In this document: positions 53,165 through 56,969 of the stretch, piece by piece | How positions within the stretch are numbered: the first letter of the stretch is position 1 | Layout of the letters: the number at the start of each line of letters is the position of its first letter | Origin: Candidatus Nanosyncoccus alces | GTDB taxonomy: Bacteria > Patescibacteriota > Saccharimonadia > Saccharimonadales > Saccharimonadaceae | Assembly: GCF_004138395.1 (NCBI RefSeq) | Contig: NZ_PRLM01000006.1 | Span: forward strand, 62,001-126,000 | Direction of reading: 5' to 3' | DNA length: 64,000 bases | Notes under the pieces: generated by a model | The model's input: the letters and a program-made list of their open reading frames with translations, nothing else | Databases searched by the model: none | Told to the model about the DNA's origin: nothing | Position numbers and translations under genes: made by a program

Positions 53165-54157
53165 TTAGATTAGGCTCCAATTATTGAGCCCGAGAGAACG
53201 GATACGAGATTTAATCTCTAGCAAAGTTGTGGCTTCATTGAATACTTCGGGCGGGAGACTGGTTGCCGTCATTATATCTTCGCCGGAACGAAGGCCACTA
53301 GCTAAGGCCTGGAGGATCTTTGTTTCAACATCATTGTCGCCGATAAGGTTGGCCTGACAGAGTTTTTTGTACTTTTTAGTATAATCTTCTGGAAAAAGTA
53401 GCTCTAGTATGTCTTTTGGTTCAGTGTAAGGAATTGCCCCCTGTTTGATAAGTTTATTACATCCTTGGGAATAGGGATTATTAATATTACCGGGTACAGC
53501 AAAAACTTCTTTACTTTGTTCTAAGGCATGGGTAGCAGTATTAAGTGAGCCAGACCTTTCAGCGGCTTCCACGACTACAACAATGTCGGAGAGCCCAGAG
53601 ATAAGGCGATTCCGCTCAAGAAAACTAACCTTAGTAAAGACATTGGCTCCTGGGGCATATTCGCTCATTACGGCGCCACCTTTCTTAATAATTTCTGCGG
53701 CCAATGGCTTGTGAGAGGCTGGGTAGATATGATCAATTGGTGTACCGAGTATTGCTACGGTAACTCCGTTGGCGTCTAGACACCCTCGATGGGCAATTGA
53801 ATCAACCCCAAAAGCTAACCCAGACACCACGACAACCCCACGTTTCCCAAGCTCATAGGCTAATTTGTAGGCTACTTCCTCGCCGTACTTGGTGTTATGA
53901 CGGCTACCGACAATGGCAACAGTTTTGGGCCGCTTCGCTCTGGCGTCTGTTCGGTTTTTCTCACTTGATTTTTGTCTAGATTTGTTTTGTTTTTGGTCAG
54001 TACTTTTAGAAATTTCGGCCATATTTTCCGGCATTTTGCCATAAAAATACAATGTTTTAGGCTTAAGCGCAATACTGTCTAACACCTCTGTAAAATTGGC
54101 TTCTAGGGGTGAAATTTGGTTGATTTTTGTAAAAAAGTGTGAAAATAGTGTTGACAT
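53165..54157 (-). CDS. dprA: DNA-processing protein DprA
   Basis: This 330-residue DprA/Smf protein hands incoming single-stranded DNA to RecA during transformation. The Rossmann-like domain shows VAIVGSRHNTKYGEEVAYKLA, VVSGLAFGVDSIAHRGCLD and GTPIDHIYPASHK, with FLERNRLISGLSD and QGCNKLIKQGAIPYTEP toward the end; the C-terminal winged-helix-like part is present. A lysine-rich loop (residues 58-80) is longer than usual. ATG 54157 has a GAGGA site; the plus-strand promoter of the neighbouring RNA begins inside its first codons. Confidence 0.94.
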   Translation of the reverse strand: MSTLFSHFFTKINQISPLEANFTEVLDSIALKPKTLYFYGKMPENMAEISKSTDQKQNKSRQKSSEKNRTDARAKRPKTVAIVGSRHNTKYGEEVAYKLAYELGKRGVVVVSGLAFGVDSIAHRGCLDANGVTVAILGTPIDHIYPASHKPLAAEIIKKGGAVMSEYAPGANVFTKVSFLERNRLISGLSDIVVVVEAAERSGSLNTATHALEQSKEVFAVPGNINNPYSQGCNKLIKQGAIPYTEPKDILELLFPEDYTKKYKKLCQANLIGDNDVETKILQALASGLRSGEDIMTATSLPPEVFNEATTLLEIKSRIRSLGLNNWSLI

Positions 54158-54179
54158 ATTTTTCCTCGTGTGATATAAT
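54151..54179 (+). promoter_or_regulatory. Perfect consensus promoter for a structured RNA
   Basis: TTGACA (54151-54156), 17-nt spacer ending GTGTGA, TATAAT (54174-54179). All twelve core bases match the sigma-70 consensus. The -35 overlaps the dprA start codon on the other strand. Confidence 0.87.
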
Positions 54180-54185
54180 GAAGTC

Positions 54186-54494
54186 AGTTGGGGCACAAAA
54201 AAGTGCACCACACCGCACCTAAATAAATTATAATTTCGGCTATACTACTTCCAGTGTAGCAGAAATTGCGTGCTTTTGAAACCCTTTCGACTTTTGAATT
54301 TCTTCATGGTTCACAAGTTTTTAAGTATTACCTCCACTTAGAAAGGCCCATTTCGAAGGCATAGCAATCCCTCTAACCGGCGGGCCCCAATTGTGTGAGG
54401 TGGGTTACGCTCCGGGGTTCACCCGGTATAGTAGTGAAGCGTTAGAGGGCCAAAATAGCCTCAGGTGATGCCCACCCTTACCTGAGGCTTTTTT
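54186..54494 (+). ncRNA. Unidentified structured RNA of about 310 nt
   Basis: Between dprA and topA, about 310 nt run from a perfect promoter to a strong terminator with no credible protein frame. Visible hairpins include TGGGGCAC/GTGCACCA (54190-54210), GCTATAC/GTGTAGC (54239-54260) and a large closing helix CCCTCTAAC (54369-54377)/GTTAGAGGG (54441-54449) that encloses GC-rich sub-hairpins. I tested by eye for RNase P, tmRNA, SRP and 6S signatures and did not find their hallmark motifs. An 11-codon frame (MVHKFLSITST, 54306-54341) lies inside. Size and expression signals suggest a major housekeeping RNA or divergent sRNA. Confidence 0.7.
54458..54494 (+). terminator. Intrinsic terminator of the 310-nt RNA
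   Basis: Nine-base stem GCCTCAGGT/ACCTGAGGC with a 13-nt loop, followed by TTTTTT. It separates the RNA from topA, which has its own promoter element at 54570. Confidence 0.95.
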
Positions 54495-54581: not shown

Positions 54582-56969
54582 ATGTCTAAAAACTTGGTGA
54601 TAGTAGAGAGCCCAGCAAAAGCACATACGATCGAGAAATATCTCGGATCGGATTTTAAAGTGTTGGCAAGTGTAGGGCACATTCGTAAGGACACCAAGGT
54701 TGATAAAACTACTTTTGATGTGACCTATGAGATTGATCCAGGGCACAAATCAATTATTGCGGAACTAAAAAAAGAAGCCAAAGCGGCCGAACGGATTTGG
54801 CTAGCAACGGACGAAGACCGCGAGGGAGAATCAATTTCTTGGCATCTGTGCGAAGTATTAAAGTTACCGAAAGACACAGCCAGGATTACCTTTCACGAGA
54901 TTACTAAGCCAGCGCTAGAGAATGCTATTAAGAACCCGCGCACGGTGGATATGGATATGGTAGCCAGCCAGCAGGCGCGGCAAACACTGGATATGCTAGT
55001 GGGGTACGATCTCTCTGATATCGTACGAAAAAAGGTGCCAGGGGCAATTTCGGCGGGGCGGGTACAGAGCCCAGCGCTGCGCCTAGTAGTAGAGCGCGAA
55101 AAAGAGATTGAGAAATTTGAGAGTAAGTTTAGCTTTAAAATCGCTGGTGAGTTTATACAGAAAGAAGCCGAAATGTTTGATTCGGGACACACTCAAGGTC
55201 GTTCAGCCGAGCTTACGGTCCCAAATCAAACATTTTCGGCTTCTTATGAAAGTAAATCTCCCGAAGATGAACAAAGTGCCAACAAATTGCTTGAATCGTT
55301 ATCTCGAGCTGATTTTGTTGTAGCAGATGTAGAAGAAACGGAAGGCACCAAGGCTAATCCGGTACCATTTACTACGGCGGCGCTACAGATAGAAGCTAAT
55401 AGTAAGCTAGGATTTACTTCGCGCACCACGATGAGTGCGGCACAGGGACTATACCAAGCCGGGCTGATTACTTACCACAGAACCGACTCGCTAAACCTGT
55501 CTAGTCAAGCAATTGGGGCGATATCTGGCTATATCGAAACGAATTTTGGGAAAGAATATCTAAAGGTGCGGCATTTTAAAACCAAAGATGCCAGCGCGCA
55601 AGAAGCGCACGAGGCAATCCGCCCAACCAATATTGCGAATTTAAATGCCGGAAAAAACGATTATGAGAAGCGGCTGTATCGTTTGATTTGGGCACGAACG
55701 GTAGCCACACAGATGGCCAATGCCAAAGTCGCAAAAACCACTATCAAGATTGCTGCTGGGGCAGACGAAACTTTTGTTGCCAAGGGCGAAGTAGTGATAT
55801 TTGATGGGTTTTTAAAAGTTTATGGAAAGTCTAAGGATCTAGAGCTGCCAAAGTTGGCCAAGGGCGATAAAATGGATTGCCTGGAGTTAACCGCACGTCA
55901 GACTTTCGCCAAGCCAGCAGCTAGATACACCGAAGGCTCACTAGTGAAAAAACTAGAAGAGCTAGGGATTGGCCGACCGTCTACCTATGCATCCATTATG
56001 ACAGCGATTCAGGCGCGGGGTTACGTGGTAAAGGGCGAAAACGAAGGCGAAGAGCGCGAGATAGTGGAATTAAAGGCCTCCAAAGGTAAAGTTTCGCGCG
56101 CAGTAGTGAAAGAAAAATTTGGCGCTAATAAGGGTAAATTAATCCCTACGCCGATTGGCGAGCTAGTGTCTGGGTTTCTGACAGACAATTTTAAAAATAT
56201 CGTGGATTATAAATTTACCGCAAACATTGAGAAAGATTTGGACCTAGTGGCAGATGCCAAGCTGGAACGGGTAAAAATGCTGAAGGACTTTTACGGGCCG
56301 TTTCGCGATACAGTGCTGGTGGCGAATGGGGTAGAGCGATATAATAATGCGCGTCTCTTGGGTCACGACCCAAAAACTGGCAAGCCAATCTATGCCAAAG
56401 TAGGAAAAAATGGTGGTTTCATCCAATTGGGGGACAACGAGAAGGAGACTGGCGAAAAACCACGCTTTGCACCATTGCCAAAACGAAAATCCGTTAAAAC
56501 AGTGAGCCTGGAACAAGCGCTAAAGCAGCTAGCTTTGCCGGTGCTACCGAGAGAGCTAGGCAAAGCACCTGACGGCGCGGTAATCGTTGCCGCCAATGGG
56601 CCGTTTGGACCATATCTCAAGGGCGGCAAATACAATATTCCGATGAAAGATTTGGACCCTTATACCGTAAGCTTAGAGGAAGCTTTGCCTTTGTACCAGG
56701 CTAAGGTGGATTCTATTATCGCGGATTGGGACGAAATCATGATTGTTAATGGTGCTTATGGGCCATATATCAAGGGGCCGGGGCGGAGAAATAACGTCAA
56801 AATACCGAAAGAAACCGATCCAAAAACTATCACGCGCGAACAGGCAGAAGAAATGCTAAAAAATAAGCCGAAAACTACGCGGCGGGGCGTGCGTGGCGGG
56901 GCGAAAAAGAAAACTGCTGCTGGAAAAACGACAGCTAAAAAACCTGCGAAAAAGTCTGCAAAGAAATAG
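54582..56969 (+). CDS. topA: DNA topoisomerase I
   Basis: This 795-residue type IA topoisomerase relaxes negative supercoils. The Toprim motif (VIVESPAKAHTIEKYLG ... ATDEDREGESISWHL), the active-site Tyr region GLITYHRTDS and SARVQSPALRL (as AGRVQSPALRL) are visible. The C-terminus has no cysteines; zinc fingers are replaced by two repeats of the GPYGPYLKGGK kind (GPFGPYLKGGKYNIP, GAYGPYIKGPGRRNN), ending in a Lys/Ala-rich tail like histone H1. TATTAT (54570-54575) ends 6 nt before the ATG, so it is probably leaderless. Confidence 0.96.
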   Translation: MSKNLVIVESPAKAHTIEKYLGSDFKVLASVGHIRKDTKVDKTTFDVTYEIDPGHKSIIAELKKEAKAAERIWLATDEDREGESISWHLCEVLKLPKDTARITFHEITKPALENAIKNPRTVDMDMVASQQARQTLDMLVGYDLSDIVRKKVPGAISAGRVQSPALRLVVEREKEIEKFESKFSFKIAGEFIQKEAEMFDSGHTQGRSAELTVPNQTFSASYESKSPEDEQSANKLLESLSRADFVVADVEETEGTKANPVPFTTAALQIEANSKLGFTSRTTMSAAQGLYQAGLITYHRTDSLNLSSQAIGAISGYIETNFGKEYLKVRHFKTKDASAQEAHEAIRPTNIANLNAGKNDYEKRLYRLIWARTVATQMANAKVAKTTIKIAAGADETFVAKGEVVIFDGFLKVYGKSKDLELPKLAKGDKMDCLELTARQTFAKPAARYTEGSLVKKLEELGIGRPSTYASIMTAIQARGYVVKGENEGEEREIVELKASKGKVSRAVVKEKFGANKGKLIPTPIGELVSGFLTDNFKNIVDYKFTANIEKDLDLVADAKLERVKMLKDFYGPFRDTVLVANGVERYNNARLLGHDPKTGKPIYAKVGKNGGFIQLGDNEKETGEKPRFAPLPKRKSVKTVSLEQALKQLALPVLPRELGKAPDGAVIVAANGPFGPYLKGGKYNIPMKDLDPYTVSLEEALPLYQAKVDSIIADWDEIMIVNGAYGPYIKGPGRRNNVKIPKETDPKTITREQAEEMLKNKPKTTRRGVRGGAKKKTAAGKTTAKKPAKKSAKK

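Follow-up and report, generated by a model that had tools for sequence, protein, structure and literature searches.

The interval between dprA and topA in Candidatus Nanosyncoccus alces raises the question of what kind of transcript is made there: a known housekeeping RNA that has diverged, a leader of one of the neighboring genes, or an RNA belonging to a family of its own. Within the window, the 64,000-nucleotide stretch of DNA analyzed here, an original prediction made from the sequence had placed a structured RNA of about 310 nt in this interval, and we followed it up with Rfam scans, alignments of relatives and searches of viral genomes.

The RNA gene and its predicted fold

The promoter agrees with the consensus at all twelve core positions, as originally read (Table 1), and the TGA that precedes TATAAT makes its −10 element an extended one. 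The promoter sequence places the expected transcription start at 54186/54187. This promoter is retained throughout the genus alignment and, by sequence comparison, can also be recognized in distant families; judged from it, the RNA is predicted to be strongly expressed. The strong terminator that had been proposed is likewise evident as a GC hairpin followed by T residues. The placement between dprA and topA holds in this genome; in some relatives dprA and topA instead adjoin, with the RNA divergent from dprA. The −35 box covers the first codons of dprA (ATG TCA A on the opposite strand, window positions 54150-54157, with the ATG at 54157-54155 on the minus strand), and because the same bases serve both, promoter strength and the dprA start would be jointly constrained. 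A promoter-like TATTAT lies directly 5′ of topA. Elsewhere in the window, the sole Rfam match is a ribosomal protein L10 leader (RF00557) at 2431-2558 on the minus strand.

Table 1. Features of the RNA gene and its neighbors (window positions)
Feature	Positions	Strand	Remarks
dprA	53165..54157	−	head to head with RNA gene; start codon overlaps −35 box of RNA
Promoter	54151..54179	+	−35 TTGACA 54151-54156; 17-bp spacer; extended −10 TGATATAAT, TATAAT 54174-54179
RNA gene	54186..54494	+	~309 nt, expected start to end of T-run; sequence, fold, genus alignment, covariance-model matches
P1, 5′ hairpin GGGGCAC/GTGCACC	54190..54209	+	covaries
Conserved unpaired segment ACCGCACCTAAATAA	54212..54226	+	distant families: GCACCTTATACCCCC...; sequence comparison
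P2 hairpin, AATTTC/GAAATT + CTATACT/AGTGTAG	54232..54267	+	length variable; fold and genus alignment
P3, long helix TTGCGTGCTTTTGAAA with TTTCGAAGGCATAGCAA	54266..54367	+	encloses anti-SD-like hairpin
Anti-SD-like hairpin AAGT[ATTACCTCC]ACTT, loop ACCUCC	54323..54339	+	stem covariation
3′ domain, closed by CCCTCTAA/TTAGAGGG	54369..54449	+	covariation in diverse set
Hairpin GTGTGA[GGTGGG]TTACGC	54393..54410	+	loop GGTGGG 54399-54404, partner of terminator loop
Local hairpin CCGGG/CCCGG	54412..54426	+	sequence comparison; preferred over long-range CCGG pairing
Terminator hairpin	54457-54489	+	six T after, end ~54494; loop GCCCACCC at 54470-54477, invariant
topA	54582..56969	+	downstream neighbor, incidental to this genome

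The several hairpins expected in an RNA of this length are borne out by the fold, whose predicted energy of −108.9 versus −82.0 kcal/mol (z −4.8) beats 100 of 100 dinucleotide shuffles. Covariation supports the helices in the genus alignment, where 21 of the 58 consensus pairs show compensatory changes on both sides, as well as in a diverse set of 25 sequences, in which 97.9% of cells are paired and 28 are compensatory, values that none of 500 shuffles reaches for either measure. In P1 (alignment columns 5-9 with 37-41), every pair has changed on both sides. The stretch between P1 and P2 is unpaired and reads GCACCUAAAUAA, with GCACCUUAUACCCCC in other families. P3 comprises 16 pairs, several of them with changes on both sides and none broken among 28 sequences. 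The long closing helix that had been predicted, CCCTCTAAC/GTTAGAGGG, is real and covaries, pairing 54369-54377 with 54441-54449, but it closes the 3′ domain only and not the whole RNA; in the diverse set 99.5% of the cells of this stem are paired and four of its eight pairs have changed on both sides. Within the 3′ domain, a long-range CCGG pairing proposed by RNAalifold was rejected because the local hairpin at the same bases suits distant relatives better, with equivalents such as CCTG/CAGG (L065) and CCAC/GTGG (L066). A coding reading was also discarded: a 32-codon frame at 54266-54364 is open in some relatives, but the spacing of conserved blocks has no 3-base periodicity, their distances falling in all three phases among 129 homologues, as expected of an RNA without a protein frame.

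Known RNA families and distribution across the order

No Rfam family matches the locus with an E value below 8, and none matches the distant homologues. The absence by eye of hallmarks of RNase P RNA, tmRNA, SRP RNA and T-box fits this result: the covariance models for RNase P RNA (RF00010) and tmRNA (RF00023) have no match at the locus, and the genome's own copies are matched at C4:36524-36861 and C4:41327-41680, respectively. 6S RNA is characterized by one long hairpin with a large central bubble and SRP RNA by a conserved helix-8 GGAA/AGCAG motif and its partner Ffh. Models of 6S RNA (RF00013) found nothing in 36 genomes of the genus, and the fold described here is multi-domain rather than one long 6S-like hairpin. 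SRP RNA (RF00169, RF01854) was found in none of 30 genomes of the genus at E ≤ 1 and none of 12 in a second search, the helix-8 motif pattern was not found in the genome, and the Ffh M domain was absent from 20 of 20 genomes of the genus, with 14 of 14 controls positive. Since both Rfam types of SRP RNA and the M domain are missing from the genus genomes tested, the canonical signal recognition particle seems, on these sequence searches, to have been lost in the genus.

The RNA itself was found by DNA search in 32 of 35 other genomes of the genus and, at that sensitivity, in none of 24 genomes of other genera. With a covariance model of the RNA core (R1), further genera of the family and one additional family also proved to have it. 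Among 295 genomes of the order, 167 match a model built on the 3′ domain (R2), each once; they include almost every complete genome of family f1 and, with weaker matches, some from other families of the order, and a 287-genome sample of the phylum gave none beyond the order. The named matches are Candidatus Saccharibacteria/TM7, among them TM7 taxa from the mouth and numerous genomes from the ruminant gut, which places the window genome in Saccharibacteria too. Homologues in relatives thus reveal a single-copy RNA throughout the order whose link to topA is incidental. Most genomes have dprA head to head with the RNA, genus g32 retains the RNA without an adjacent dprA, and the gene 3′ of the RNA differs among relatives. 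There is no constant same-strand downstream gene, neither topA nor dprA, of the kind that a cis-acting leader would have. Its retention without dprA, as in g32, argues that the RNA is not merely a dprA leader, and the variable downstream gene together with the inconstant dprA indicates that it serves neither topA nor dprA as a leader.

These data make two readings very improbable: a diverged 6S, SRP, RNase P or tmRNA, and an element that regulates topA or dprA in cis. A gap for a diverged RNA does exist, in that neither 6S nor SRP RNA was found in the genus; against this, RNase P RNA and tmRNA are present at other loci, nothing in the RNA resembles any Rfam model, its fold is not a single long hairpin, and the SRP protein M domain is missing too. 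A cis-regulator is countered by the varying downstream genes and the dispensable adjacency of dprA. The reading as a structured RNA that stands alone between its own promoter and terminator and lies outside the named families has therefore held, on the lack of Rfam matches, deep conservation and covariation, and we regard a new family of this kind in Saccharibacteria as virtually certain. Comparison among sequences gives it a conserved fold with covarying helices, a conserved promoter and terminator, and order-wide single-copy occurrence. The RNA has its own promoter and terminator by sequence, as trans-acting small RNAs do, and it is probably a trans-acting RNA of the housekeeping regulatory kind. 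Because Saccharibacteria genomes are very small, an RNA kept across the order likely does something basic.

A close parallel is the raiA-motif RNA, or ModT, which is reported to occur mainly in Bacillota and Actinomycetota and to act in trans (PMC11706538). As described there, that RNA is also single-copy, standalone, deeply conserved and housekeeping-like (PMC11706538); it contains pseudoknots and often lies beside the competence gene comFC (PMC11706538), and here dprA adjoins in most genomes. The two differ in that RF03072 is unmatched here (up to E 10 at the locus and up to E 2 in the distant homologues), with no common motif seen, and in that phage-borne loop copies, described below, are not mentioned for the raiA-motif RNA in the passages of that report consulted here (PMC11706538). 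GOLLD, ROOL and OLE are large structured bacterial RNAs with no known catalytic role that form homo-oligomers (PMC12286853). The Saccharibacteria RNA resembles them as a structured bacterial RNA without a known catalytic role; they are larger, and it matches no Rfam family. Our literature search found no description of such an RNA, and a paper on Saccharibacteria genetics does not mention noncoding RNA. Its function is open to experimental test, since Saccharibacteria that can be grown in culture and manipulated genetically are available (PMC10633639).

The terminator loop, its internal complement and viral hairpins

Both the terminator loop GCCCACCC and an internal GGUGGG are invariant in the diverse set. 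GGUGGG occurs in all homologues listed except L123, which has GGGTGG. It precedes GCCCACCC by 57-117 nt where it forms part of a hairpin loop and by 32-40 nt where it adjoins the closing stem. The hairpin-loop position is found in the genus and in its close relatives; in the remaining genera and families GGUGGG lies next to the closing stem's 3′ strand, as GGGUGGGUU, and several genomes have it at both places. In the host terminator loop, only the eight bases matching GGGUGGG(U/C) are constant, with variation outside GCCCACCC, and in two homologues (L053, L056) a C after GGUGGG turns a U-G into a C-G pair. That the complement is kept though its place shifts supports pairing between GCCCACCC and GGUGGG; the GGUGGG/CCCACC pairing never varies, so covariation cannot prove it. 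We infer that the terminator loop pairs with GGUGGG in the folded RNA, where the contact would be a loop-loop interaction or a pseudoknot, and consider this pairing mechanism an evenly balanced proposition. Among single records, L014 has a second terminator hairpin after the RNA, and L218 has a pair of hairpins separated by 50 bases.

Hairpins with the same loop also stand alone in viral genomes. The 19-base f1-type terminator loop is present in 28 IMG/VR contigs, and in 27 of the 28 its flanks are complementary while the stems differ (covariation score 0.707 versus 0.176 shuffled). Two further host loop types occur in 9 and 37 viral contigs, most with stems; a control loop with one base altered gave six matches and no stems. 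In total, there are ~68 stemmed viral hairpins in 67 contigs; the search patterns fixed the loop, so its conservation in phages partly reflects how the matches were selected. Of the 68 hairpins, 81% lie outside long frames, compared with 26% for the background. A −10-like box at the right distance accompanies 28% of them (9% of the intergenic background), and a T-run follows 24%, also above background. Based on the matching loop types and on G+C, from which hosts were assigned to the viral contigs, the phages carrying these hairpins appear to infect Saccharibacteria. A DNA search of INPHARED phages gave no match. This host assignment is tempered by the nearest protein relatives found for two viral contigs, which are from phages of Actinobacteria; phages shared between Saccharibacteria and actinobacterial hosts have been predicted (PMC10746230). 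Stemmed hairpins were also seen in two actinobacterial records, one in a phage-like region of Antrihabitans sp. YC2-6 (L161 4218) and one in an Aeriscardovia MAG (L253) in a region closely similar to viral contig L273; these reflect either shared phages or contamination. Another viral contig (L328 8000-8400, IMGVR_UViG_3300049064_000004) appears to contain the entire RNA, its promoter and terminator included, and has a separate hairpin on the opposite strand; the full copy may be a provirus flank or phage-borne.

Many elements integrate at RNA genes, and the viral hairpins might on that account be attachment sites matching the 3′ end of the RNA gene, uninformative about its function. Some viral stems are indeed similar to host stems, and in genome G006 (L013 1790-2650) the terminator of the RNA is directly repeated on either side of a ~0.7-kb insertion that lies 3′ of the RNA and contains two small minus-strand frames. 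However, viral stems that differ from one another and yet remain complementary already weaken this explanation, and the genes near the hairpins include those for the major head protein, portal, tail, primase and exonuclease, and a crude motif check picked out just a single integrase-like candidate. We therefore consider attachment sites a highly unlikely account.

The recurrence of the loop suggests instead that phages of Saccharibacteria copy or exploit the RNA. In the mechanism we favor, a single-copy RNA, which would also present an anti-Shine-Dalgarno loop (described below), would be made from a strong constitutive-type promoter and ended by its own terminator, and the terminator-loop copies in phage transcripts would compete in trans for its GGUGGG site; such competition would mean that phages titrate the RNA, hijack it or are regulated through it. 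GGTGGG is not enriched near the f1-type viral hairpins, and an intramolecular partner within the phages was accordingly rejected; the viral loop must then act in trans or bind a protein. The complete reading, a housekeeping trans-acting RNA with loop pairing that is mimicked by phages, seems to us to have even prospects of being correct. More tentatively, and with somewhat less than even confidence, we picture an order-wide core RNA with a loop-loop lock (GGUGGG/GCCCACC), for which many unrelated phages have independently evolved host-type-matched free hairpins as picks.

CsrB-type RNAs titrate the protein CsrA, and the main rival, which we find doubtful, is of this sort: the GCCCACCC hairpin would be the site of a Saccharibacteria RNA-binding protein that the RNA titrates or scaffolds and that phages recruit by carrying such a site in their own transcripts. 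A protein reading GCCCACCC fits the phage data equally well, as the viral hairpin stands alone with no GGUGGG partner nearby, keeps its loop constant while its stem is free to vary, and is found close to phage-unit promoters and terminators. In the host, however, no more of the loop is constant than the eight bases matching GGGUGGG(U/C), and the partner within the RNA is kept when it moves, which a protein site alone would leave without explanation. An abundant RNA with a recurrent recognition element, as in CsrB/6S-type sequestering RNAs, may serve as a working model, although repeated GGA sites, a 6S-like long hairpin and any Rfam match are lacking here. On either the pairing or the protein reading, the viral hairpins would be natural ligands, of the RNA or of a protein, with which the partner could be fished out. 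Our literature search found no precedent for the mimicry pattern. Regulatory RNA as such is already known in bacteria; the novelty lies in the RNA family and the hairpin it shares with phages, and the pattern, if confirmed, would be a case of phages imitating, on a large scale, the loop of a structured RNA of their hosts, a bacterial group about which little is known.

The anti-Shine-Dalgarno-like loop and gene starts

The hairpin enclosed by P3 presents ACCUCC, the anti-Shine-Dalgarno (anti-SD) sequence of 16S rRNA. Its stem occurs as AAGU/ACUU, UAGU/ACUA, CAGU/ACUG and GCGU/ACGC, which are compensating variants, and the loop is always ACC(C)UCC while the stem covaries (173 extracted matches, some of them off-target CCTCC). 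This loop would be free to pair with the Shine-Dalgarno (SD) sequences of messages. In the window genome, read as stretches amounting to ~434 kb of 727 kb, in which no rRNA gene was found, AGGAG precedes 63 of 318 genes and none of 315 controls, so that SD sequences are in use. The ribosome-binding sites of two genes, named metK and glmS from their N-terminal sequences, carry AAGTGGAGGT, complementary over 10-11 bases to ACCUCCACUU of the RNA (one genome).

It is possible, though rather improbable, that the RNA is foremost an antisense regulator of translation, its ACCUCC loop blocking the SD sequences of certain mRNAs, metK and glmS among them, and the terminator contact only shaping the fold. 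The invariant loop on a covarying stem, the genome's use of SD motifs and the presence of AAGTGGAGGT at two of them speak for such a role. On the other hand, the candidate targets come from one genome only, a general anti-SD motif would confer low specificity, and the viral hairpins would be left unexplained. Like RNAIII and similar regulatory RNAs, the Saccharibacteria RNA has several hairpins whose C-rich loops could pair with SD sequences; it differs from them in matching no Rfam family and in that an internal GGUGGG complements one of its C-rich loops, which is also found in viral genomes. In the window genome, TATAAT is the most frequent 6-mer immediately before start codons (77 counts in 318 leaders), which suggests that many messages are leaderless beside those led by SD sequences.
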